NCBI GenBank assembly: GCA_027486585.1
Contig: JAIXOU010000034.1
Location: 1-64,000, forward strand
DNA length: 64,000 bases
Direction of reading: 5' to 3'
DNA from: Verrucomicrobiaceae bacterium
GTDB taxonomy: Bacteria > Verrucomicrobiota > Verrucomicrobiia > Verrucomicrobiales > Verrucomicrobiaceae
Part shown: positions 13,963 to 56,094 of the stretch, piece after piece
Layout: each line of letters opens with the position of its first letter
Numbering within the stretch: position 1 is the first letter of the stretch
Position numbers and translations under genes: made by a program
The notes under the pieces: model-generated
Seen by the model: only the letters and a program-made list of their open reading frames with translations
Databases searched by the model: none
What the model was told of the DNA's origin: nothing

Positions 13963-16626
<2,664 letters not shown>

Positions 16627-18270: not shown

Positions 18271-21200
18271 ATGATTGTGAACTCTTGTTATTTAATCTTT
18301 GCCGGCCTCTGTCTGGGAGTGTCGACCATTGTTGCGGCTCCTGCTTGGAAAGACGCTGAGAGCGTGTTGAAAGCGCGGTGCTACGAATGTCATAATGACA
18401 AAAAAATGAAGGGAGATGTCGATCTCCAGCAGTTCGCGGCTGATCCGCAGATTGCAAAGCAGTTTGAGGTGTGGATCAAGGTCAAGGACACCGTTGAAAG
18501 CGGCGACATGCCACCGCCGAAAGCCCACCAAATGAGCGATCAGGAACACGGCGCCTTACTCGGTTGGGTCAGTGGTGAGCTGGATCATCTGGCACAGTCG
18601 CAATCAGGCGATCCAGGGCCCGTGACGATGCGTCGTTTGACCAATGCCGAGTATGACAATACGATTCGTGATCTCACTGGACGAAGCTACGGCCTAGCGG
18701 ATGAGTTCCAAACCGATGGCGGTGGAGGTGAAGGTTTCACGAACACGGGTGATGTGCTTTTCATGAGCCCGGCAGCCATTGATAAATATTTCAATGCCGC
18801 ACGAAAGCTGGCGGACTATGCCACGATCATGCCGGGAACAGGCATTGTTTTCAACCCACAGCGCATCGGCCTGCGCGGCGTGGAACAGTTGAAAGCGCAG
18901 GCGCAGCAGGGACTCTATGTTTGGTATCAGCAGAAAGCGGCACCCCATCTGCCCAAAGATGACGAGCCGATGCGTGAAGCCGATTACATGCTGGCCTGCT
19001 GGATGCATAAGCAGACCCAGACTCCGCTGGATCAGTTGGCCAAGGACATGAAGCTGAGCATTCATTTCCTGAACAATTGGTGGAATCTCGTCAACAGCAC
19101 GGAACCAAAGAGTCGTTTTCTTGATCTGACTCGTGTCGCGTGGCGGGAACTACCGGCAGATGAAAAAACGGCCCGAGAGCGCATCCAAGGCATCGAGGCA
19201 GATCTACACTCTTGGAATAATCCCAAACATCCCGGCAGCGGCGTTCAACGCCAGCAACAAGACAGCGACGGCATCCGCCCCTATAACATGCAGACGGCTG
19301 TGAAAGATAAGTCACATGTTTATCTCTGCATTGGTGACACCGGAGATGGCAACAAAGGCGACATCGCTCTAGTGACTTACATTGAGGTCAGTATCGGTAA
19401 GAAAAAAGAAAACTACTTCCATTGGCTCAATAGGTCGCTCGATGAAAAGCGTAAGCTCGTTGCGAGCAATCCACCGCCGCCAAATCTTGATCTTCTCAAG
19501 GCGCGGATCGCCGAGCTGGAAAAAATTCGCGCCATCTATGGCAAGCATCCTCAGGGACGTCAGATCGAGCCCCACGTGATCGGACTTGCAGCGCCGACCG
19601 TTGTCACGATCCCCATGCCTGAAGGCGCGCATTGGCTAAAAATCGAGTCCAGACTCGACCTGCAAAACCCAGAGGCGGAAGAAGCAACCATTCAATGGGC
19701 CATCTCTACCGATAAACCGCGCGACGTGACCAAGATTATGCCCGGTGTGCTGACCATCTGGAAACGCGCCACGAAGAAGTCCGGCGAGACCATGAACGAC
19801 TTCAACAAAATGAAGGTAGCCTTTCCAGATATGTTTGAGCGTCGGCTCGAAGAAGTGGCGGGTAATCTTTTCCGCAACGGCAAGCCAGGCATCAGTGTGT
19901 ATTATTTTAGTGATGAACAGCTCGGTCAATTGCTCGGCCAAAAAGACCGCTGGAAGCTTGAGGAGATGAAGAAGGACTGGAGTTTGGCCGGCAATCCCAA
20001 TTTGAAGCCTGACCAGCAGAAGCAGTTCGATGGCTCCATTCTCTGGCATCTGCAGCAGTTTGCCAAACGCGCTTGGCGCAGACCGATCACTGAGGAAGAG
20101 TCCCAGAAGTTAAATTCCCTGTATTTTGCCAGCCGCGCCAAAGAACTGGACCGTGAATCTGCAGCACGCGAAGTGCTGGTGCGCATCCTCGTCTCGCCCC
20201 ATTTCCTTTTCAAAGCAGAGACACTTCCGCTCGCACAGACGGAACCTGGAGACGTGAAGCTCAACGCGTTTGAGTTGGCGTCGCGCCTGAGTTACTTTCT
20301 GTGGGCTTCCATGCCCGATTGGGAACTGCGCAAAGTCGCTGAAGATGGCACACTCACCCAGCCTGAAGTGCTGGCGGCACAGACAAAACGAATGCTCCGT
20401 GATCCCAAAGCTAGCGCCATGGCAAAAGAGTTCGCGGGTCAGTGGTTGAAGTTCAGTGGCTTTGATGAAAAGAGCAGCGTCGATGAAAAGGCGTTCCCGC
20501 AGTTCACTCCCGAACTGCGTGCGGACATGCAGCATGAGATCGAAGAGTTTTTCACGCATCTCGTACAAGAGGATCGCAGCGTCTCCGACATCATCATGGG
20601 CGACTACAGTTTCATGAATGAGCGACTCGGCTGGCACTACGGAGTACCAAACATTGTCGGAAATCAATTCCGCGAAGTCAAAGTCGGACAGCATCATCGT
20701 GGCGGACTCTTGGGAATGGGCGCTATCTTGACGAAAACCTCACGTCCTAGCCGCACCAGCCCGGTGCTACGAGGCGATTATTTGTATCAAGTCGTGCTTG
20801 GCTTCAGTTCGCCACCACCACCGCCCAATGTGCCTGAGCTTAAGGAAGCCAGCAAACCTGCCAGCCTGCGTGAAGCACTCATGCAGCATCGTGCCGATCA
20901 GGCCTGTGCGGTTTGTCACGATCGCATCGACCCGCTTGGCTTTGCTTTGGAGCGCTTTGATCCCATCGGTCGCTTCCGCGCTGAAGCGGACATTGATGAC
21001 ACAGGCGAGCTGAAAGACGGCACCAAATTCCAAGGTCTTGACGGCCTGCGCACCTATCTTAAAAAGAACGAACCGAACTTCACTGCGCAATTCAGCCGCA
21101 AGCTTCTTGGCTACTCGCTGGGCCGGCAAACATTGCCGAGCGACAAAGCGCTGATCGCGCAGATGCAGGATTCACTGGCAAAGAACAATGGCAAGTTTTC

Positions 21201-21276
21201 CGCCGCCGTTCTCACCATCATTCGAAGTCGCCAGTTTCTCAATCGCCGAGGTGAACCCGCGGTCGCGGGGAATTAA
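18271..21276 (+). CDS. Large DUF1592-type cytochrome c domain protein
   Basis: This 1001-residue exported protein shows the complete modular order of the family. After a signal peptide (to about residue 24) comes an N-terminal cytochrome domain with Cys37-x-x-Cys40-His41 and GDMPPPKAHQMSD. Next is a DUF1587-like segment (RRLTNAEYDNTIRDLTGR), then a long central insert, a DUF1595/DUF1592 region (ELASRLSYFLWASMPDWEL) and DUF1588 with Cys879-x-x-Cys882-His883 in CAVCHDRIDPLGF. A DUF1585 tail (RKLLGYSLGRQTLPSD) closes it. The family is very common in Planctomycetes and Verrucomicrobia but its reaction is unknown. No DUF1552 partner is adjacent, unlike the copy at 13963. Confidence 0.92.
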   Translation: MIVNSCYLIFAGLCLGVSTIVAAPAWKDAESVLKARCYECHNDKKMKGDVDLQQFAADPQIAKQFEVWIKVKDTVESGDMPPPKAHQMSDQEHGALLGWVSGELDHLAQSQSGDPGPVTMRRLTNAEYDNTIRDLTGRSYGLADEFQTDGGGGEGFTNTGDVLFMSPAAIDKYFNAARKLADYATIMPGTGIVFNPQRIGLRGVEQLKAQAQQGLYVWYQQKAAPHLPKDDEPMREADYMLACWMHKQTQTPLDQLAKDMKLSIHFLNNWWNLVNSTEPKSRFLDLTRVAWRELPADEKTARERIQGIEADLHSWNNPKHPGSGVQRQQQDSDGIRPYNMQTAVKDKSHVYLCIGDTGDGNKGDIALVTYIEVSIGKKKENYFHWLNRSLDEKRKLVASNPPPPNLDLLKARIAELEKIRAIYGKHPQGRQIEPHVIGLAAPTVVTIPMPEGAHWLKIESRLDLQNPEAEEATIQWAISTDKPRDVTKIMPGVLTIWKRATKKSGETMNDFNKMKVAFPDMFERRLEEVAGNLFRNGKPGISVYYFSDEQLGQLLGQKDRWKLEEMKKDWSLAGNPNLKPDQQKQFDGSILWHLQQFAKRAWRRPITEEESQKLNSLYFASRAKELDRESAAREVLVRILVSPHFLFKAETLPLAQTEPGDVKLNAFELASRLSYFLWASMPDWELRKVAEDGTLTQPEVLAAQTKRMLRDPKASAMAKEFAGQWLKFSGFDEKSSVDEKAFPQFTPELRADMQHEIEEFFTHLVQEDRSVSDIIMGDYSFMNERLGWHYGVPNIVGNQFREVKVGQHHRGGLLGMGAILTKTSRPSRTSPVLRGDYLYQVVLGFSSPPPPPNVPELKEASKPASLREALMQHRADQACAVCHDRIDPLGFALERFDPIGRFRAEADIDDTGELKDGTKFQGLDGLRTYLKKNEPNFTAQFSRKLLGYSLGRQTLPSDKALIAQMQDSLAKNNGKFSAAVLTIIRSRQFLNRRGEPAVAGN

Positions 21277-41631: not shown

Positions 41632-41837
41632 GGGGGGATGTGTAGAGATAGCAAGCAGATGCCAGCGCAAAGTTCAGCAGAAAGACTGTCACGCTACTGA
41701 CACGTAGGGATGACATGTGAACGCTTCTCCGCTGAGGAATCTGGCGTGTAGTTCGGGAGCTTGGTTGGGACGAAAGCGCGGTGCCAGACTTGGCAAGCTT
41801 GGCTTGCGTAAGGAAAAGTAATGAATTATTCGTCGGT

Positions 41838-42083
41838 ATGACGATTACCTTTCCAGACGATGACGGAGCACTGCTGAAGTTTACAGCGGATGACCTGCGG
41901 CTGGAACTCGCGTGTGCGCTGTATGCGCGTCATCGCATCACCCTGTCACAAGGGGCTCGCCTTGCAGGCATCGAGCGCATGGTATTTCAAGAAGCCCTCT
42001 GTGATCGTGATATCGACATGCATTACAGCAGTGATGATTTAAAAACCGATCTGGCATCCCTCGAAGCTGTGTTAGGAGCATGA
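41838..42083 (+). CDS. UPF0175 family antitoxin
   Basis: The start chosen is the ATG at 41838 (MTITFPDDDG), giving 81 residues; an earlier in-frame start adds 19. UPF0175 proteins are small helical VapB-type antitoxins with a ribbon-helix or winged-helix like core, here around CALYARHRITLSQGARLAGI and RMVFQEALCDRDI. The ATG of the toxin overlaps the last codons by four bases (ATGA at 42080-42083). Such pairs regulate their own promoter. Confidence 0.82.
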   Translation: MTITFPDDDGALLKFTADDLRLELACALYARHRITLSQGARLAGIERMVFQEALCDRDIDMHYSSDDLKTDLASLEAVLGA

Positions 42084-42577
42084 TTGTCGTTGCCGATACC
42101 TCAGTGCTGCTGAATTTGGTGCTGATAGGCGAGATTGATTTGCTGCGCCTTCTGTTCGGTGCTGTCATCGCGCCGCAAGCCGTGCATGACGAGTTCGCCC
42201 GGTTATCAGCATCGAGCGGCAGATTCGCTGGGCTATCTATGCCGTCATGGGTGCAATCGCATGGGGTGTCAGATGCTTCACTCGTGACGCAGTTGCGGGT
42301 TACGCTTGATGCTGGCGAGTCAGAGGCTATCGCCTTAGCGGTCGAGATTCATGCGGATGCTGTGTTGATGGACGAAACCGAAGGGCGATGCCTAGCTCAA
42401 GCCAGAGGACTCCGCACCATTGGTATCGTGGGTATTCTCATCCAGTCCCGCCAAGCCGGTCTCGTGCCTGAGCTTGGTCCCTTATTTATTGCCTTGCGTG
42501 AACGAGCAAAGTTTCGGCTGAGTTCGAAGATTGTGAATGAAGCTCTACTCGCATGTGGCGAAAGAACCGCCTCGTGA
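42080..42577 (+). CDS. DUF3368 PIN-domain toxin
   Basis: A 165-residue PIN-fold ribonuclease-like toxin of the DUF3368 group, the usual partner of UPF0175 antitoxins. The PIN acidic residues are visible: Asp6 in VVADTSVLLNL, Glu in LDAGESEAIALA and Asp in AVLMDETEGR. It probably cleaves RNA and is blocked by the upstream antitoxin. The pair is inserted between mtnA and the mtnBDC operon, close to a fragment of mtnA, which points to rearrangement of this spot. Confidence 0.88.
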   Translation: MIVVADTSVLLNLVLIGEIDLLRLLFGAVIAPQAVHDEFARLSASSGRFAGLSMPSWVQSHGVSDASLVTQLRVTLDAGESEAIALAVEIHADAVLMDETEGRCLAQARGLRTIGIVGILIQSRQAGLVPELGPLFIALRERAKFRLSSKIVNEALLACGERTAS

Positions 42578-45311: not shown

Positions 45312-45468
45312 GATGCACGAATCGAGAGAGACAAAGGGCGGTCAATGCCCGGCTCTTCATGCGACGACATTGTCACCTGTGCTCAGCATGAGAGGATTTA
45401 CGCGATCTCGTAAACAAGACCTCAGTCTCCGAGTTGCTTGCGCTACGTAGAAGTCGCATGATCCGAGT

Positions 45469-47418
45469 GTGAAACGACTTCTGCCTCTCCTACTCCTCTT
45501 TGCCTTGAGCACGACCGCTCTTGCTGAGTGGGAGTGGCTCAGTGCGGACCTGCGCCTAGCTCAGCACAAGCTGATTTCACATCGGGCTGCCTTAGCGTCT
45601 TTGGGGGAACCCATGGTGGGGCAGACAGTGCCAGAGTTTGGCTTACAACATAGCATGCTCTTGAATGCACCCCCAGAGTCACCTTTTCTGCAGGTCGATC
45701 TGGGAGCATCCCAGGCTTTTGATGTCGTGGCCTTGGTGCCTGCCATTGTCGATTTCCAATCCCTCACTCAGTCAGCTTATGCTTTCCCGCCTCGATATCG
45801 GCTGGATGCTTCGGACGATGAAAACTTCGCCACCTTTACGCCGCTGAAAGTGCAGTTGAATGAAGATGCCGTGCTCTATGGGGCCGCGCCTGTCATTGTT
45901 CACACACCGAGTATCAAAGCCCGTTATCTACGCCTCACCGTGCCAACCATGGCGCGCGTGGAGGGGCGCTGGACTTTTGCTTTATCGGAAATCATGGTCC
46001 TGCAGGGCAATCGAAACATCGCCCTTGGTGCCAAAGTCCTGCATCTGAAAGGCACCAACTTGCCTCCGCGTTGGCTTGGCCAAAACGTGACCGACGGGCG
46101 CACCCCACTTGGCCCACCGATGGATCGTTCTTCTGTGCCAGAGTATGATGCTTTGTTTGCGGCCATTCACGATGATGTCACCACGCCTTGGATGGCTGTC
46201 GATCTGGGTGGCGAAAGAGAGCTGGAGGAAGTCAGATTGCATCCGCTCCATGCGCGTCAGGGCGCTGATGTTCCTGGTTTCCGATTCCCGCAGCAATTCC
46301 GTGTCGAGACAGCGGCTCAGGCGGACATGAAGGATGCCAAAGTGATCTATGACACGCATGGAGTGGACTTTTCCAATCCCGGAAACAACCCAGTCACGCT
46401 GCCCGCGCAGGGGCTGAGGGGACGCTTTGTCAGGGTGACCATGCTCAAGATACAACCTGCCATTCGTGCAGATTTTGCCCTCTCTGAATTAGAGGTCTAT
46501 TCAGGCAATGAAAATGTGGCCCGTGGAAAGCAGGCCACATCCTCGGGGGACCGCCCCAGAGATGCGATCCGCCCGTTGTCACTGCTCACGGATGGTCATG
46601 TGAGTTATGGTCGGTTGCTGGAACTGCCTGTATGGCTGGCTCAATGGGAACAGCGTCAAACCCTCATGCGAGATATTGCGGCGCTGGAAGAGCAGGGGAT
46701 AAAGCTGCGCCGATTGGCCATGCAGCGGGCCGTGAGTTTAGCTGTTCTGGGTGTCTTCGTTATTGCAGTAGGACTCATCTTTGTCAGTATTCGCAGCCGC
46801 CGTCGTCAGGCCAGAGCGCAGGAAGCTTTGCGCAATCAACTGGCTCGCGACATGCATGATGAAATCGGCAGCAACCTCGCCGGCATGGCCGTGATCAGTG
46901 AGCTACCCATGCATGATCCAGAAGATTGGAAAGAGATCAATCGCATCGCCCATGAGACCACGGATGCCATGCGGGAAGTGCTTTGGTTGGTTGGTGCTCG
47001 TCAGGAGTCCGGCATTGATCTCATGGAGCAACTGCAACGCGTGGCGAAACGCCTACTGCCTAACCATACCGTGATCTGGAACTCCCTCACCACGGATCTG
47101 CCCAGCTCGTGGCCCGTGGAATCACGACGTCAAGTCTTTCTCTTTTTCAAAGAGGCTCTCACCAATATCCAGCGCCACGCCAAGGCCACTCAGGTGAATC
47201 TTTCCGCACAAATCACTGGCAGCGTCTTAGAGCTCATCATTCAGGACAACGGCCGCGGCTTTGAGCCCGCCGAGGCCACATCAGGCATGGGTCTTAGCAG
47301 TCTGCGCGAGCGTGCCAAGCAGCTCAGCGGCACCTTTGCTCTCGACTCCTCTCATCTAGGAACCAAGCTCACCCTTCGAGTGCCGCTTGCAGCTAAACTT
47401 CGTCATTCGCCATTCTGA
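45469..47418 (+). CDS. NarL-type sensor histidine kinase with discoidin-like sensor domains
   Basis: After a signal peptide (MKRLLPLLLLFALSTTALAE) the exported part (about residues 20-400) contains two F5/8 type C-like (discoidin) modules. These are seen as LQVDLGASQAFDVVALVP...ARYLRLTVP...FALSEIMVL and WMAVDLGGERELEEVRLHP...GRFVRVTML...FALSELEVY. A coiled region and one membrane segment (residues 421-441) lead to a HisKA_3 kinase. The phospho-acceptor is His463 in DMHDEIGSN; the ATPase has FFKEALTNIQRHA, DNGRGFEP and SGMGLSSLRERAKQ. Discoidin modules bind sugars or lipids, so the sensor may read a carbohydrate outside the cell. Its regulator partner follows by 17 bases. Confidence 0.88.
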   Translation: MKRLLPLLLLFALSTTALAEWEWLSADLRLAQHKLISHRAALASLGEPMVGQTVPEFGLQHSMLLNAPPESPFLQVDLGASQAFDVVALVPAIVDFQSLTQSAYAFPPRYRLDASDDENFATFTPLKVQLNEDAVLYGAAPVIVHTPSIKARYLRLTVPTMARVEGRWTFALSEIMVLQGNRNIALGAKVLHLKGTNLPPRWLGQNVTDGRTPLGPPMDRSSVPEYDALFAAIHDDVTTPWMAVDLGGERELEEVRLHPLHARQGADVPGFRFPQQFRVETAAQADMKDAKVIYDTHGVDFSNPGNNPVTLPAQGLRGRFVRVTMLKIQPAIRADFALSELEVYSGNENVARGKQATSSGDRPRDAIRPLSLLTDGHVSYGRLLELPVWLAQWEQRQTLMRDIAALEEQGIKLRRLAMQRAVSLAVLGVFVIAVGLIFVSIRSRRRQARAQEALRNQLARDMHDEIGSNLAGMAVISELPMHDPEDWKEINRIAHETTDAMREVLWLVGARQESGIDLMEQLQRVAKRLLPNHTVIWNSLTTDLPSSWPVESRRQVFLFFKEALTNIQRHAKATQVNLSAQITGSVLELIIQDNGRGFEPAEATSGMGLSSLRERAKQLSGTFALDSSHLGTKLTLRVPLAAKLRHSPF

Positions 47419-47435
47419 TTTCGTCATTTCTCGTT

Positions 47436-48089
47436 ATGCCTCTCATCTGGATCATCGAAGACAATGCTGCTTTTCGCCGAGGCACTGAGCGTGCACTCAG
47501 CCTAAAGCCGCATCAGCATCAAGTGCGTGCCTTTGCTAACTGCGAGGATGCTATCGCTGAGTTGAATGCAGACAGTGCGCCGCAAGTCGTCTTACTCGAT
47601 GTCGGCCTGCCTGGCATGGATGGCATTACCGGTATCGCCCATCTGAAAAGTCGCGCGCCACTTGCCAGCATTCTTATTCTCACTGTGTTTGAGGACGACG
47701 ACAAAATCTTCCGCGCCATCTGCGCAGGAGCTTCTGGCTATCTGTTGAAATCAGAGCCCATGGCCCAAGTCATCACCGCCATTGATCAAGCCATCGCCGG
47801 CGGCTCGCCCATGAACCCACGCATCGCCACGCGTGTGCTTGCCATGTTTACGAGGCTGGCCCCCACCAAAAAAGACTACGGTCTCGATGAGCGTGAGCAG
47901 GCCGTCTTGAAGTGCATGGTCGCTGGAATGCCACGCAAACAAATCGCCGACGCCACGGGACTGAATCCTCACACAGCCGATTACATCACCCGCAGCATCT
48001 ACCGCAAACTCCACGTTAACTGCGCCACTGCTGCCGTGTCAAAAGCCGTAGCGGAGCGATTGGTGGAAGATTCTGGTGTGATTCAGTAA
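47436..48089 (+). CDS. NarL/FixJ-type response regulator
   Basis: The N-terminal receiver has the acidic pocket IIEDN and phospho-acceptor Asp55 in LLDVGLPGMDG, and the later LTVFEDDDKIFRA and LLKSEP. A LuxR-type helix-turn-helix occupies about residues 148-205 (YGLDEREQAVLKCMVAGMPR and KQIADATGLNPHTADYITRS). It is the cognate partner of the kinase, 17 bases upstream. Target genes are unknown; the adjacent sulfur and mtn loci are only positional candidates. Confidence 0.93.
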   Translation: MPLIWIIEDNAAFRRGTERALSLKPHQHQVRAFANCEDAIAELNADSAPQVVLLDVGLPGMDGITGIAHLKSRAPLASILILTVFEDDDKIFRAICAGASGYLLKSEPMAQVITAIDQAIAGGSPMNPRIATRVLAMFTRLAPTKKDYGLDEREQAVLKCMVAGMPRKQIADATGLNPHTADYITRSIYRKLHVNCATAAVSKAVAERLVEDSGVIQ

Positions 48090-48177: not shown

Positions 48178-48726
48178 ATGAAGCTCACCAAACGCGGCGA
48201 ATACGCTCTACGCACCCTGATCCGACTCGGCATTGCCGAGCGCAAGGGCGCGGATGTCGTGTCTGTGTCGAGTTTGGCAGAGAGCGAAAAGTTACCTTAT
48301 AAGTTCCTTGAGAACATCCTTGCTGAGCTTCGGCAGGCAGGTTTCGTTCAGAGTAAGCGTGGCAAGTTCGGAGGCGTCATGCTGGCCCGTCCGATGAAGA
48401 CCATTAAGATGGGCGAGATCGTCCGTCAGATTGATGGCAAGCTGGCACCGATCGGATGCGCCTCCGAGACGGAGTATGAAAAGTGCTCCTGTCCAGACGA
48501 GGAGCACTGCGGTTTGCGGATGTTAATGATCGACGTGCGCAATGCGTTGGCAGGCATCCTTGACCGTTACACGCTGGAACACGTCGTCGAAGTGACGATG
48601 CGTAAAGAGGAGAGAGAAGAGAAGTTAAAAGCCAAATCGAAGGCAACTAAAAAGACAACAATACGCCACGCAGACCCTGCCGATGGCTTCTTGGCAGCAC
48701 TCCTGACTCTCAGTCCCGCCAAATGA
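48178..48726 (+). CDS. Rrf2-family transcriptional regulator with cysteine cluster
   Basis: A winged-helix Rrf2 protein (MKLTKRGEYALRTLIRLGIA, then QAGFVQSKRGKFGGVMLARP). Cysteines at 94, 103, 105 and 111 (APIGC..., EKCSC, EEHCG) are in the zone where IscR, NsrR and RsrR bind an iron-sulfur cluster. The spacing is not that of IscR, so the cluster type is open. By context it should regulate sulfur metabolism (cysK, sulfonate-type binding protein), like CymR and other Rrf2 regulators, possibly via CysK or cluster status. A Lys/Glu-rich linker and tail (residues about 140-165) is longer than usual. The DUF2292 gene overlaps it by four bases. Confidence 0.9.
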   Translation: MKLTKRGEYALRTLIRLGIAERKGADVVSVSSLAESEKLPYKFLENILAELRQAGFVQSKRGKFGGVMLARPMKTIKMGEIVRQIDGKLAPIGCASETEYEKCSCPDEEHCGLRMLMIDVRNALAGILDRYTLEHVVEVTMRKEEREEKLKAKSKATKKTTIRHADPADGFLAALLTLSPAK

Positions 48727-49166: not shown

Positions 49167-50573
49167 ATGAAAATTCATTCATACACGCCACTCTATTTTA
49201 TCGCCCTTCTGTCAGCCTCGCTTGAGGCGTCTGAGCCAGAAAAAAAGAGCGTGTCCTATTATAAGCCGCCACAAAGCTACAGCACCACCCGTGACCCAGA
49301 CTTGCCCAAATATGCGCGCCATGCACAAGAGACAGATATCGACTTCCTTCGGGATCTTAGCTGGCTAGACATCGGTCTCGATTACCGATTCCGTGCCGAA
49401 TATCGAGACGATGACATTCGCCGTGCCACTGGCGGCCTAGACGAGCCTCTACTTCACCGCACTCGGGCTTATCTTGGTATCCATGATCTGCTCGATCCAT
49501 TCCGCTTTGCCATCGAGCTGCAAGATTCTCGCCGCTACAATGGCAACTACGAACGTGATAACCGCGACTTCAATGAGTTCGAACTTATTCGACTTCAAGC
49601 GGAGCTCTTCTTCGATGATCTTCTCGCTCCCGACCCTCAAGGTAACAAACGCCCCATCAGCTTGCGCTACGGTATCCAGAACTTCGAGTTTCTTGACCGC
49701 CGTCTGCTCGGAAACAATCAGTGGCGGAATACGGCGAACACCTTTCTTGGTTTTCGTGGAGCTATCGGCCAAGACTCGAATGACTGGAGTCTCGATCTCC
49801 TCGCTGTTCAGCCTCTGGAACGCGAACTGTTTCGTTGGGACGAACCCATCGAAGGTCGCTGGGTTTATGGCCTCATCGGCCACTGGCGCGGATGGTCAGA
49901 CATCGTCACTCTAGAGCCCTTCTACCTTGCACTGGATCAAAGCCAGACGGCAACAGCAACGGACCGCACCGTGCATTCACCCGGTATCCGTGCTTATGGC
50001 ACCGTGGGGAAAACGGGTTTCGACTACGATGTTTCCGTCATTAAACAATTCGGCCACAACGGCACGCAGAATGTCGATGCCTGGGGGGGCACGGCAGAAG
50101 TCGGTTACCGCTTTGATCAACCCTGGAAGCCACGCCTCAGCGCCTTTTACGGCTATGCCAGCGGTGACAAAAACCCGAACGATAACACCGACAACCGCTT
50201 TGAGCGCTTCTATGGCTTTGGTCGCCCATGGTCAGCCAATGATTACATTGTTTATGAGAACATCAGCACTCCGAAACTGCGCGTGGAACTGACGCCCACA
50301 GATAAACTGCGCATCGATTTTGGGTACAGCTGGTATCATCTCGCTAGCAACACCGACCGCTTTGCTGGAGCGGAAAATGCTCGTGATAAAAAAGGCCAAA
50401 GCGGCAGCAGCATTGGCCACGAGTTCGACATCCGTGCGCGCTGGCAACTCAGCAAAAAGATCGAAGCCATCCTCGGTTACGCACACTTCACTGCGGGTGA
50501 ATTCACTCGCAATGCCGTCCGCCCTGGCGACACGGACTTTGCTTATCTCGAACTCAATATCGCTCTCTTTTAG
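49167..50573 (+). CDS. Outer-membrane porin of the alginate-export type
   Basis: A 468-residue exported protein (signal MKIHSYTPLYFIALLSASLE) with the alginate_exp (AlgE-like) beta-barrel pattern: LDIGLDYRFRAEYRDDD, PLLHRTRAYLGIHDL, FIELQDSRRYNGNY-like and repeating amphipathic strands to a C-terminal Phe (LELNIALF). AlgE-type barrels export or import acidic sugars and related anions. Here the 240-base upstream region contains possible Rrf2 sites, and the next gene (36 bases) is a sulfonate-type binding protein. That suggests it admits sulfur-containing anions such as sulfonates. This is inference. Confidence 0.83.
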   Translation: MKIHSYTPLYFIALLSASLEASEPEKKSVSYYKPPQSYSTTRDPDLPKYARHAQETDIDFLRDLSWLDIGLDYRFRAEYRDDDIRRATGGLDEPLLHRTRAYLGIHDLLDPFRFAIELQDSRRYNGNYERDNRDFNEFELIRLQAELFFDDLLAPDPQGNKRPISLRYGIQNFEFLDRRLLGNNQWRNTANTFLGFRGAIGQDSNDWSLDLLAVQPLERELFRWDEPIEGRWVYGLIGHWRGWSDIVTLEPFYLALDQSQTATATDRTVHSPGIRAYGTVGKTGFDYDVSVIKQFGHNGTQNVDAWGGTAEVGYRFDQPWKPRLSAFYGYASGDKNPNDNTDNRFERFYGFGRPWSANDYIVYENISTPKLRVELTPTDKLRIDFGYSWYHLASNTDRFAGAENARDKKGQSGSSIGHEFDIRARWQLSKKIEAILGYAHFTAGEFTRNAVRPGDTDFAYLELNIALF

Positions 50574-50609
50574 CTCACCAAATTTCTTCAATTCTAATTC
50601 TACCTCATC

Positions 50610-51584
50610 ATGAAAACACGTTATTTCCTCACCACCCTTTTTGCCGCCTCCATGCTCGTCTCGTGCGGTAAACAGGAGCCTGCGGCCAATGGCAAGCCGA
50701 CGATTCGCTTTGGCCACTTTCCGAACATCACACACGTTCAAGCGCTGGTCGCTCATCAACTCTCTCGTCAGGGTAAAGGCTGGTATGAGCAGCGACTCGG
50801 GGCCAACATTGAGTGGTTCATCTACAATGCCGGTCCTTCTGCAACAGAGGCCATCTTTGCTCGTGCGCTGGATGTCACTTACATCGGTCCTAGCCCTGTA
50901 CTGAATGCCTACTCGAAATCGAAAGGCACCGAACTACGTGTGCTTGCGGGAGCTGCGAATGGCGGCAGCGCGCTGGTCGTTCGCCCCGGTGCAAACATCA
51001 AGACGGCTGCTGACCTGAAAGGCAAAAAGATCGCTACACCACAACTGGGTAACACGCAGGACGTGCAACTCCGCGCCTACCTTGCTGACAATGGTTTTAA
51101 GATCACGCAGACAGGTGGAGATGTGTTCATCTTGCCGACCGCAAATGCGGATCAGCTTGCGCTCTTTCAACGCGGAGAACTGGATGCTTCGTGGACACCC
51201 GAGCCCTGGACCACACGTCTAGAACTCGAAGTCGGTGCGCAGATCCTTGTCGATGATCGTGAGACCAACGTGACCTTACTCGCCAGCAGCGCCGCCTTTG
51301 TCAAAGAGCAGCCCGATTTGGCAAAAAAGCTTGTCGCCGCACACAAAGAACTCACTCAATGGATCAAAGACCATCCAGCTGAAGCCAAGGTTCTCATCAA
51401 AGCTGAACTCACTGAGTTGATGAAAGCCACACCCAAAGATGAACTCATCGACAAAGCCCTGAGCCGCATTGTCATCACCGATGATGTCTCCCGCGCCTCG
51501 CTCGACAAGATGGTCATCAGCGCTCAGAAAGCCGGCTTCTTGAAAGAGATCCCAGCCTTGGATCAGCTTTTCCCTAAACTCTAA
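50610..51584 (+). CDS. Aliphatic sulfonate/taurine-type ABC substrate-binding lipoprotein
   Basis: A lipoprotein (lipobox Leu-Val-Ser-Cys19) of the SsuA/TauA/NrtT family. The landmarks are [74 protein letters not shown] and [14 protein letters not shown]. These are the ligand-binding features of aliphatic sulfonate or nitrate binding proteins; sulfonate is favoured by the neighbouring cysK. Strikingly, no permease or ATPase gene is adjacent, so those must be elsewhere. Confidence 0.88.
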
Positions 51585-51603
51585 CAACGAACCTGAAACT
51601 ATT

Positions 51604-52566
51604 ATGGCTTATTATCCTAACATCGTTGAAACCGTCGGAAACACGCCGCTGGTGCGATTGAATCGAATCGCTTCGGGTCTGCCAGCAAGCATCGCGCTGA
51701 AAGGCGAGTTTAAGAACCCATTAGGCAGTGTGAAGGACCGTATCGGTCGAGCCATGATCGATGCCGCTGAGGCGTCTGGTCAGCTCAAGCCCGGTGGTGA
51801 AATCATTGAGCCGACCTCAGGCAATACGGGGATTGCTCTTGCTTTCATCGCTGCCGCTCGTGGTTACAAGCTCACCCTGACCATGCCTGAAACCATGAGT
51901 TTGGAGCGCCGCACGCTTTTGGCACTGCTTGGCGCGAATCTCGTGCTCACGCCTGGACCGCAAGGGATGAAGGGGGCGATTGCCAAAGCAGAAGAACTCC
52001 TCGCGGCAGCGCCTAATGCGTGGATGCCTCAGCAGTTTAACAATCCAGCCAATCCAGAAGTACATCGTCTCACGACGGCTGAAGAAATTTGGGCAGACAC
52101 CGATGGCGGTGTGGACATCTTCGTCTCGGCTGTCGGCACAGGCGGCACGATCACGGGAGTGTCAGAGGTGATCAAATCACGTTGCTCTGGGTTTCAAGCC
52201 ATCGCTGTAGAGCCAGCCGCTTCGCCAGTGATTACGCAGACCCTCGCTGGAGAACCTGTCATTCCAGGCCCGCACAAGATTCAGGGCACAGGAGCTGGCT
52301 TTGTGCCAAAGAACCTCAACTTAGCCCTGCTCGATGAAGTGATCCGCGTCACCAATGAAGACGCCATCTCCACGGCGCAGCGGTTAGCCAAGGAGGAGGG
52401 CTTGCTTGTCGGCATCTCCACCGGTGCCAACGTTTGGGCTGCCCTGCAAGTCGCCGCTCGTCCTGAAAACAAAGGCAAGCTTATCGTCACCATTGGTTGC
52501 AGCACCGGTGAGCGTTACCTCTCAACCGCTTTGGCGGACCTAGCACGTAACCAAGTCAATCCATGA
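51604..52566 (+). CDS. cysK: Cysteine synthase A
   Basis: CysK makes L-cysteine from O-acetylserine and sulfide. PLP lysine is Lys44 ([11 protein letters not shown]), the substrate loop TSGNTG is at 71-76, and the phosphate site GTGGTITG is intact. The late segment [15 protein letters not shown] is also typical. It sits 19 bases after the binding lipoprotein gene and 4 bases before the M14-type gene, in a clear transcription unit. A broken cysE, the gene for its usual substrate-forming partner, is 3.5 kb downstream. Confidence 0.97.
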
Positions 52567-53499: not shown

Positions 53500-56094
53500 A
53501 TGAAAACGACTCTCATCGCTGGGCTAATTGTAGCCTTCAGCATTTCTTTCGCCCATGCACAAACCAACGGCACTTGGATCAATGCTAGCACTAATTCCAC
53601 TTGGAGTACGGCTTCCAATTGGTCTGGCAGCAGCATCGCCGACGGCACGGATGCGATCGCCGATTTTAGCACACTGGACATCACGGCGACTCGCACTGTG
53701 AACCTCGGAGCTAACCGCACTATCGGTTCGTTGATCTTTGGCGATGCTACCACCGCATCGAACAACTGGACGCTCGCCAACGGCGCAGGCGGCCCGTGGA
53801 CACTCACGCTCGCTACGAGCAGCGGCACGCCAGTGATCCAAGTTGTGAATCAAATCACCACTGTCTCGGCATTGATCGGTGGCACACAGGGTTTCGCGAA
53901 GACAGGCGCGGGCACTCTCACGCTCAGCAATGTGGCGAACACGTTCACTGGCGGCATCAATCTGAGTGCAGGCACCCTGAACTTTGCCAGTGGATCGCTG
54001 GGCAGCAATCTCGTAGCATTCACCGCCAGTTCTACACTTGGTTGGAGTGCTGGGAATACGCAGGACATCTCCTCGCAGTTAAAGATTGATGATGGTGTTA
54101 CCGCGACGTTTGCTACAGGCGCGAACAATGTGACACTTGCGACGCCGATTCAAACAGGCACCACCTCCAGTGCGTCTATCACCAAGACAGGAGCGGGTAC
54201 ACTCACCTTCACGGCGGCGAACTCCTACACGGGTACCACTCGAGTCAACGGAGGGAAGGTGGTGCTGGGTGGAGGCGATGGTCGCTTAGCTGCTGGGAGC
54301 TCGTTGCTTCTCGGACAAAACGCCACCACTGGCATTCTTCAACTTGGTGATACCACAGCGCCGAGCGCGCAGACTTTTGCCTCGATCTCGACCGCAGGCA
54401 GCGGCACTGCCAATGCCATCGTGGGTGGTCACAGTACCGTTTCCACATTGACCGTAAACAATGCAGCAGCCGTGACCTATGGCGGCTTGTTGGGTGGTAT
54501 TGGCACAAATGAAAACAACCTCGCTCTCACTAAACTAGGCGCTGGTGCGCTGACACTCAGCAATGCCGGCAATACCTTTATCGGAGGCGTGAACATCAGT
54601 GGTGGTGCCATCATTATCACCACATCGACGGCACTCGGTCTTGGTGCGAAGTCCATCACTATCAGCGGTAGCACAAATGCGCCCACGCTTCGTCTGGATG
54701 GCACAGGAGGTGATCTAAATTTGCCTGCTGATTACAGCCTCATCACCAGCAATGACAACGCGAACAATCCAGCATTGCTCAATGTCGCTGGGAACAATAG
54801 CATCGCAGGCAGCATCTCACCCACCACGGGCGGCTTTGGCGGGGGCAACACACGCATCAAAGTTAACGCAGGCAGTCTTGCGCTGAATGGAACGATCACA
54901 CCACACGCGAGTGCCATAGGTTCACAAAGCATCATTTTTGATTCTGCTACCGGCACCAATGGTAGCTCGAGTGGCGTCATCAGTGATAACGGTGCCCTTA
55001 CCCTCGCCGTCACAAAAGCCAGCGCGGGCGTGTGGAGTCTCAGTGGTGCAAACACCTACACTGGCGCCACCACCGTCAATGCAGGCACACTACAAATAAA
55101 CGTCATCGCGGCCAACGGCACGGCTCAGCCGCTAGGCTCCGCGACGTCAGCCCTTCTCATTGGCAGCACGACGCTCGGCACTCTCGAATACACAGGCGCT
55201 ACGAATGCCACATTGGCTCGTGGGATCACCGTCAATGGAACGGGTGGGGCAACGATCTCTAACACTGGTGGCTCCATTCTCACACTTTCTGCCGCACAGG
55301 CTCGCGGAGCGCGGCCGATCACTTACTCCGGTGGCAGTTTTAATATCAGTGGACGCATCACAGGCACCGCGACCACTAGCCCCCTCACCATCGATAACGC
55401 CACTGTGCGGCTCTCGCACAACAATAACAGCTACGTCAGTCCCACCGTCGTTCAGAACAACAGCACGCTCATCGTCTCTAACACACTGGCCACTAGTTCA
55501 GCTACGGGCACCGGCAATGTCACCATTGATTCGACCAGCACGCTCGCTGGCACGGGCTTCATCAATGCTGGCACGGATAACACGATCACCATCAATGGCG
55601 GACTTGTTATTGGAGATCCAGCAGCCACACTAGCGGCCAATCTCGATCTCACGACCTCCGGCATCGGTAGCACCAGCTTTGGCGCAACGAGTATTCTGCA
55701 TCTCGATCTGTTTACGGGTGCCGGACTTGGCGACAACTCCGCCAATGCCAGTGCATCTGATCAACTCAAGCTCTTCGGCACACTGAGCATCCTCTCTGGT
55801 GCCACACTGAAGCTCACGAATCCGAACAACCTCACCGCCTGGGCGGATGGCGATGTGTTTAAGCTCTTCGACTGGGCCGGTCTCACGGGAAGCTCTGGTA
55901 GTTTCAGTGTGGACTATTCCGATTTGAATCTTCCCAGTGGAGCCAGCTTGAACACCAGCAACCTCTACACGCTAGGCACTGTCGCCATCGTCGTCCCTGA
56001 GCCAAGCCGCGCCGTGCTCCTCATGTTTGGTCTTATCTGGATTTCGACTCAACGACGAATCGTCAAAAAAGCTAACTTCATCAATGTTCATTAA
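53500..56094 (+). CDS. Autotransporter-associated repeat protein with PEP-CTERM tail
   Basis: An 864-residue exported beta-helix protein. After a signal peptide (MKTTLIAGLIVAFSISFAHA) it repeats the autotransporter-associated beta strand motif, e.g. KTGAGTLTLSNVANTFTGGI, KTGAGTLTFTAANSYTGTTR, KLGAGALTLSNAGNTFIGGV and SAGVWSLSGANTYTGATTV. It ends in VPEPSRAVLLMFGLIWIS and a basic tail, a PEP-CTERM sorting signal. This is read by the exosortase/EPS system, which is not in the window. The Ser/Thr/Asn-rich repeats are typical of verrucomicrobial surface adhesins. Its end overlaps the remains of a cysE gene. Confidence 0.93.
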   Translation: MKTTLIAGLIVAFSISFAHAQTNGTWINASTNSTWSTASNWSGSSIADGTDAIADFSTLDITATRTVNLGANRTIGSLIFGDATTASNNWTLANGAGGPWTLTLATSSGTPVIQVVNQITTVSALIGGTQGFAKTGAGTLTLSNVANTFTGGINLSAGTLNFASGSLGSNLVAFTASSTLGWSAGNTQDISSQLKIDDGVTATFATGANNVTLATPIQTGTTSSASITKTGAGTLTFTAANSYTGTTRVNGGKVVLGGGDGRLAAGSSLLLGQNATTGILQLGDTTAPSAQTFASISTAGSGTANAIVGGHSTVSTLTVNNAAAVTYGGLLGGIGTNENNLALTKLGAGALTLSNAGNTFIGGVNISGGAIIITTSTALGLGAKSITISGSTNAPTLRLDGTGGDLNLPADYSLITSNDNANNPALLNVAGNNSIAGSISPTTGGFGGGNTRIKVNAGSLALNGTITPHASAIGSQSIIFDSATGTNGSSSGVISDNGALTLAVTKASAGVWSLSGANTYTGATTVNAGTLQINVIAANGTAQPLGSATSALLIGSTTLGTLEYTGATNATLARGITVNGTGGATISNTGGSILTLSAAQARGARPITYSGGSFNISGRITGTATTSPLTIDNATVRLSHNNNSYVSPTVVQNNSTLIVSNTLATSSATGTGNVTIDSTSTLAGTGFINAGTDNTITINGGLVIGDPAATLAANLDLTTSGIGSTSFGATSILHLDLFTGAGLGDNSANASASDQLKLFGTLSILSGATLKLTNPNNLTAWADGDVFKLFDWAGLTGSSGSFSVDYSDLNLPSGASLNTSNLYTLGTVAIVVPEPSRAVLLMFGLIWISTQRRIVKKANFINVH

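Follow-up and report, generated by a model that had tools for sequence, protein, structure and literature searches.

A discoidin sensor kinase and its NarL-type regulator as a probable switch for one PSCyt-DUF1501 gene pair in Verrucomicrobiota

Two adjacent genes of a Verrucomicrobiaceae bacterium, encoding a sensor histidine kinase with two discoidin modules and a NarL-type response regulator, probably form a dedicated, self-regulated switch for one PSCyt-DUF1501 gene pair, a reading built from sequence comparison. The genes lie in a window of 64,000 nucleotides (the whole stretch of DNA that was analysed, from contig JAIXOU010000034.1). The kinase is no one-off but a member of a widespread Verrucomicrobiota family, as judged by homology and profile searches. 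What is new is what the pair probably controls, namely the link to PSCyt genes and a probable operator and target that can be read from the DNA.

The kinase and its response regulator

The kinase (649 amino acids, GTG start; 45469-47418) and the regulator (217 amino acids; 47436-48089) were defined by open reading frames and Pfam; both, with all of the kinase features below, are on the plus strand, and the gap between them is 17 nt. A regulator directly downstream of the kinase had been part of the original prediction, and the downstream protein has the receiver and GerE helix-turn-helix of the NarL/FixJ class (Response_reg, 72.9 bits; GerE, 33.3 bits, both above the curated gathering cut-offs against which Pfam matches were scored).

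From its amino terminus, the kinase comprises an export signal read from the sequence (residues 1-19; 45469-45525), a stalk helix (residues 26-44; 45544-45600, helix 7-25 of the AlphaFold2 model), discoidin unit 1 with its tail strand and DG motif (residues 50-212; 45616-46104, placed by Pfam and by the end of the unit common to PSCyt proteins), discoidin unit 2 with its tail (residues 218-382; 46120-46614, placed by Pfam, the unit profile and a model of the unit alone), a long helix into a single membrane segment (residues 383-440; 46615-46788, helix 364-412 of the model, and sequence) and, by domain searches, HisKA_3 and HATPase_c (residues 455-641; 46831-47391). F5_F8_type_C (PF00754) scores 38.3 bits against a cut-off of 28.2, and F5_F8_type_C_2 (PF22633) 30.8 bits against 27.8, each in two stretches. 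HisKA_3 scores 27.1 bits (cut-off 24) and HATPase_c 33.3 bits (cut-off 26.4). Read from the sequence, the phospho-acceptor histidine and the N and G boxes of the NarX/UhpB type of HisKA_3 kinase are present and conserved, and one hydrophobic stretch, at about residues 421-440, follows the modules. The NarL-type kinase proposed earlier from the DNA is thereby borne out, and the single membrane segment behind the modules is read in the same way.

By family and profile comparison, the nearest kin of the kinase core are UhpB-like and DesK-like kinases. UhpB itself is rejected at an equivalog score of 92.3 bits (cut-off 408), a 7TMR-DISM kinase by the lack of any 7TMR-DISM Pfam match in the protein, and a hybrid two-component system by the kinase and regulator being separate, unfused reading frames.

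Fold of the sensor and nature of the ligand

An AlphaFold2 model of residues 20-432, made with eight sequences, is of moderate confidence (pLDDT 71, pTM 0.65). In it, two beta domains follow an N-terminal helix, and a single long helix then leads into the membrane segment. Among solved structures, Foldseek ranks neuropilin-1 b1b2 as the best match to the sensor model (E 2.7e-8), followed by DDR1 (E 6.4e-7) and the tandem CBM32 of ZmpB (E 1.1e-6), and VIA-align gives Z scores of 9.7-10.0 over 104-111 residues with several chitosan-, fucose- and galactose-binding modules. Unit 2 modelled alone, also with moderate confidence, matches the same discoidin/CBM32 folds. As modelled, both beta domains are jelly-roll discoidin folds like the solved members. 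Pfam, the model, Foldseek and VIA-align thus agree with the two F5/8 type C-like modules first proposed, which model as tandem discoidin/CBM32 and not as another fold.

Taken as the basis, this fold fits the binding of a sugar or glycan. A substantial competing view, somewhat less probable than not, is that the modules bind a protein, a lipid or a part of the cell wall, or sense mechanically. Neuropilin, DDR1 and factor V/VIII are not known to act through sugars, and they are among the top fold matches of the sensor. The fucose motif of F-type lectins, H-X24-RXDX4-(R/K) (given in PMC5712786), is also missing from the sensor modules as a rule: in relaxed form it was found in 4 of 69 kinases and in none of 10 PSCyt modules. 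On the other hand, CBM32 and fucolectin domains that bind sugars make up most of the structural matches with high Z, 7 of the 69 kinase copies have a sulfatase within 5 kb, and PSCyt proteins, for which PMC5615132 proposes a carbohydrate role, contain the same module. Fucose specificity, which was considered because the best profile matches among solved structures are fucolectin-like, is dropped as a claim with the motif missing. For a sugar or glycan ligand, guilt by association would point to sulfur-bearing sugars: sulfatases adjoin the kinases of L041 and L042, two close relatives of the window locus, sulfonate genes stand by the displaced target pair described below, and SsuA and CysK genes stand by the kinase. 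This association could be a trait of the lineage.

A kinase family linked to PSCyt genes

Homologues at E ≤ 1e-30 occur in 41 of 56 related genomes, often two per genome, and chance is therefore excluded as the source of the observation. Of 67 other family places, 61 were taken with their flanks, and 6 that were truncated or weak were left out. Across the phylum, 36 of 288 genomes match the sensor profile, in 27 of them with a match that spans the greater part of the sensor (roughly 300 of its 414 profile positions, or more), and a scan of GTDB contigs yielded seven loci, 45-77% identical, all titled Verrucomicrobiaceae or Akkermansia assemblies. By the criterion applied, the regulator is directly behind 55 of 69 kinases, and some of the other cases may be due to contig ends and frame breaks. 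The kinase frame of one metagenome contig (L043:306-1595) has one internal stop. The source genome itself has a second family kinase (C88:12333), 34% identical, preceded by two reading frames that, read from the sequence, resemble an ECF sigma factor and a FecR-like membrane protein (loci L002/L047).

Gene clustering and Pfam reveal two recurring kinds of neighbour pair: PSCyt1/PSCyt2/PSD1 with DUF1501, and PSCyt1/PSCyt3/PSD2-5 with DUF1552. PSCyt/PSD proteins, the planctomycete-type cytochromes, and their partner genes are covered by He et al. 2017 (PMC5615132). Other recurring neighbours are sulfatases and a lactate permease. A PSCyt/PSD, DUF1501 or DUF1552 gene lies within 5 kb of 37 of the 69 kinase copies, and of 27 of the 45 with complete flanks, versus 0 of 10 other NarL-type kinases of the source genome (Fisher P 0.0013; the controls are 10 of its 11 other kinase places, with C123, at a contig edge, left out). 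The layout varies by clade on the tree. In several clades PSCyt follows the regulator on the same strand or is divergent from the kinase; one clade, of nine copies, has no PSCyt link at all, and 32 of the 69 copies are without PSCyt or a partner gene within 5 kb.

These genomes are full of PSCyt genes, with 78 PSCyt1 domains in the source genome and 38-80 in five others, and a neighbourhood of this kind might be put down to chance. That explanation is highly improbable. PSCyt genes lie within 5 kb of 25 of the 45 copies with full flanks, where gene density alone would predict 12.9% (the neighbour counts are not independent, since the 56 genomes are related), and none of the ten controls has such a neighbour. 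The gap between regulator and PSCyt is similarly short in many copies, and the predicted operators are common to kinase and PSCyt promoters.

The displaced PSCyt-DUF1501 pair

The kinase copy in the window has no PSCyt gene within 5 kb. In its close relatives L041, L042 and L046, a PSCyt-DUF1501 pair is directly behind the regulator, and the orthologous pair of the source genome lies about 30 kb downstream on the same strand (C87:78318 to C32:3698, across two contigs that overlap by 119 identical bases). The identities are 86-88% and 96%. Transport genes like SaoA/SsuB and SsuC are upstream of it; behind it, at L119:3758-8409, are an SsuD-like monooxygenase, a Gfo/Idh/MocA oxidoreductase and a sugar-type MFS transporter. 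The gene after DUF1501 is not called an SsuD alkanesulfonate monooxygenase, at 276 bits against an equivalog cut-off of 518 for TIGR03565, which is still its closest family. The L040 genome has the same gene order around its displaced pair.

In the window, the kinase-regulator pair is instead followed on the plus strand by an Rrf2 regulator (48178-48726; nearest named equivalog CymR, below its cut-off) and then, by profile searches, by a porin (Alginate_exp), an SsuA-family binding protein and cysteine synthase A (49167-52566). Methionine-salvage genes are also among its flanking genes. Conceivably, the pair controls these present neighbours, its PSCyt link being only history; L040 has the same right-hand order next to its kinase-regulator pair, and sulfur genes flank the displaced PSCyt pair too, SaoA/SsuB-like and SsuC-like upstream and SsuD-like downstream. 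Set against this, no second dyad of the kind described in the next section occurs in the window, even with one mismatch, and in L041, L042 and L046 the dyads stay with kinase and PSCyt though these neighbours are absent. We regard control of the present neighbours as distinctly unlikely, and prefer the displaced PSCyt-DUF1501 pair as the target.

Elsewhere in the window, a UPF0175 and DUF3368 gene pair (41781-42577) lies between mtnA and other methionine-salvage genes, and resembles a toxin-antitoxin pair. An 864-residue protein with passenger-associated transport repeats (PATR) in four stretches is encoded at 53500-56094.

Predicted operators

A dyad, TTACGCGATCTCGTAA, at 45398-45413, 71 nt before the GTG start, is the predicted operator in the kinase promoter, and is the only one in the window with up to one mismatch allowed. 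When the displaced pair's promoter, taken from two genomes, was aligned with the gaps between regulator and PSCyt in L041, L042 and L046, TTACGAACCCTCGTAA was the single block present in every sequence. Written as TTACG-N6-CGTAA, the pattern occurs at four places in the 6.5-Mb genome, two of which are the promoters of the kinase and of the displaced pair, in the latter about 54 nt before the PSCyt-DUF1501 genes; a reversed-pattern control occurs at nine places in the same genome. Beside neither of these two promoter dyads is there a consensus sigma-70 promoter. No dyad accompanies the two planctomycete cytochrome genes of PSCyt3 type that the window also contains (13963-16626 and 18271-21276).

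The window copy belongs to a clade of nine. In 7 of its 8 copies with upstream sequence, the kinase-promoter dyad is exact or has one mismatch and is always 70-74 nt upstream of the start codon (as placed by the alignment in the relatives), and an exact dyad precedes PSCyt in 7 of 8. The exceptions are L044, with no dyad near the kinase, and L048, with none before PSCyt. The background of exact dyads in other loci is 2 in 1.24 Mb, and the dyad arms are 91-97% conserved versus 51-66% for the flanks. Read as 7-2-7, both sites have 6 of the 7 arm positions paired, with binding predicted from geometry: the size and symmetry of the dyad suit a NarL-type dimer because NarL binds 7-2-7 inverted repeats (as described in PMC7419079).

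Other clades appear to have dyads of their own. In clade B, CCCCGAA-NN-TTCGGGG precedes the kinase in 13 of 15 members; of the two exceptions, one runs into the end of its contig, and the other, the second copy of L053, has a degenerate dyad (this copy is clade B on the tree and, being outside the first 14-locus scan, was scanned separately). Where clade B kinases have a divergent PSCyt3 gene, the dyad lies in the space between the two, in most cases at distances of 77 and 45 nt. Of 11 clade B genomes, 10 have an exact dyad at the kinase locus, and one of these has a further exact site in another place. The remaining genome (G005), in which the contig of the kinase stops short of the site, was counted as a miss and has a single exact site away from the kinase; the G016 copy is clade C and hence no test of the clade B dyad. 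Among 66 upstream regions, 15 hold a perfect 7-2-7 dyad versus 0.8 in shuffles, eleven of the 15 being from clade B.

The clade A dyad is exact in 2 of 20 loci, with its other matches at one mismatch and some of them inside genes, and the clade C dyad, with up to 3 mismatches allowed, has a background of 68 in 1.16 Mb. From the sequences, the operators of clades A and C are weaker than in clade B and the window clade, and are taken as leads. Dyads of clade C precede a GTP-dependent PEPCK gene at L080:16576-16591 and L081:12493-12508 (identified by clustering in L080 and by Pfam in L081), so that the nine-copy clade without a PSCyt link carries its dyad before PEPCK in two loci; clade C may control central metabolism rather than PSCyt genes. 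The recognition helices of the regulators are near-uniform within clades and differ between them.

The dyad might belong instead to another regulator, such as the adjacent Rrf2 protein or a global factor. The link between dyad and regulator is bioinformatic, palindromes of this size suit many dimeric regulators, and two of the four dyads in the genome have no evident link to the kinase-regulator pair or its PSCyt genes. This alternative is nevertheless unlikely: the dyad accompanies the kinase-regulator pair in L041, L042 and L046, where no Rrf2 gene lies behind it; the kinase promoters of other clades carry 16-bp dyads of different sequence, in step with different recognition helices, strongly so in clade B and more weakly in A and C; and the geometry is that given for NarL in PMC7419079. 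The NarL-type regulator remains the favored candidate for the dyad.

A module common to sensor and target

The kinase sensor profile matches 16 PSCyt proteins in the loci, at 133-146 bits and each over one unit, which ends after the segment NLTDG or a like one. Fifteen of them are in kinase-centred loci; the sixteenth is on C88, 10.5 kb from the second kinase of the source genome. When the 56 genomes were searched in full, 37 of them had a single module-bearing PSCyt protein. Of these proteins, 18 are no more than 11 kb from a family kinase, 15 are on a different contig, and 4 belong to genomes that have no kinase match. The unit model also matches both repeats of many kinases, tail included, and the aspartate of the DG motif is kept in 69/69 and 68/69 kinases.

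By chain alignment, the segment with the DG cation motif of F-type lectins (motif as given in PMC5712786) precedes the fucose-site histidine. In the kinase and PSCyt unit the DG segment comes last, and this order therefore suggests that the discoidin module is circularly permuted. Moving the tail to the front raises the Pfam score of the PSCyt module from 29.5 to 32.6 bits (+3; 29.7 in a shuffled-tail control), with no gain for the kinase units. A lectinolysin chain gives a weak sign of permutation, its residues 9-26 matching the tail (0.3 bits) and its residues 36-146 the body of the unit (18.5 bits). The unit is modelled to fold without the preceding tail, its core reaching pLDDT 94. The block that contains its own tail strand has a mean pLDDT of 67, and the DG part is not resolved in the model. 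Five VIA rows also fit the canonical strand order of unit 2.

Proposed mechanism

Two periplasmic discoidin modules on a helical stalk would bind a ligand, most likely a sugar or a piece of glycan, possibly sulfated or sulfonated. From the sequence and the model, the stalk passes through a single membrane helix into the NarL-type kinase, which would phosphorylate the adjacent regulator. A regulator dimer is predicted to bind the 16-bp 7-2-7 dyad. Located 71 nt before the kinase gene, the dyad would provide autoregulation, and the second dyad, about 54 nt before the PSCyt-DUF1501 genes, would place that pair, some 30 kb away, under the same operator. Ligand binding, phosphotransfer, the function of the operator and activation of the pair are steps that we infer.

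A bolder and doubtful extension is that Verrucomicrobiota have insulated pathways of this kind, in which each discoidin kinase-regulator pair would have its own operator and one PSCyt pair, and sensor and target, bearing the same permuted module, would recognize the same ligand, which in the lineage of the window might be a sulfated or sulfonated sugar. A module common to sensor and target would, if this is true, be a simple way to match switch to substrate.

Relation to known systems

The target is of the same kind as the PSCyt/PSD systems of He et al. 2017 (PMC5615132), for which no dedicated regulator is described in the sections of that paper bearing on them, and no discoidin kinase tied to PSCyt genes was found in the open-licence papers searched. 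The proteins of the pair are secreted and have long been without an assigned function; the sensor and predicted operator give a handle on them, and the signal that turns the kinase on would be a candidate substrate of the PSCyt pair.

UhpB/UhpA and NarX/NarL likewise have a HisKA_3 kinase core, a NarL-type regulator and 7-2-7 dyad geometry. They differ from the pair described here in its periplasmic discoidin sensor, its one membrane segment and its other operator sequence and target. LadS and the 7TMR-DISMED2 kinases also have a periplasmic sensor fold that resembles carbohydrate-binding modules (as characterized in PMC4866733). LadS, however, combines a DISMED2 domain and seven membrane helices in a hybrid kinase, whereas here there are two discoidin units, one membrane segment and a separate regulator. 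The RsgI anti-sigma factors of Clostridium thermocellum carry sugar-binding modules. As outlined for them, an outside substrate sensor governs genes that act on the substrate, which is the arrangement proposed here; the means are different, RsgI being an anti-sigma factor that works with sigma-I through proteolytic signalling and not through a kinase.
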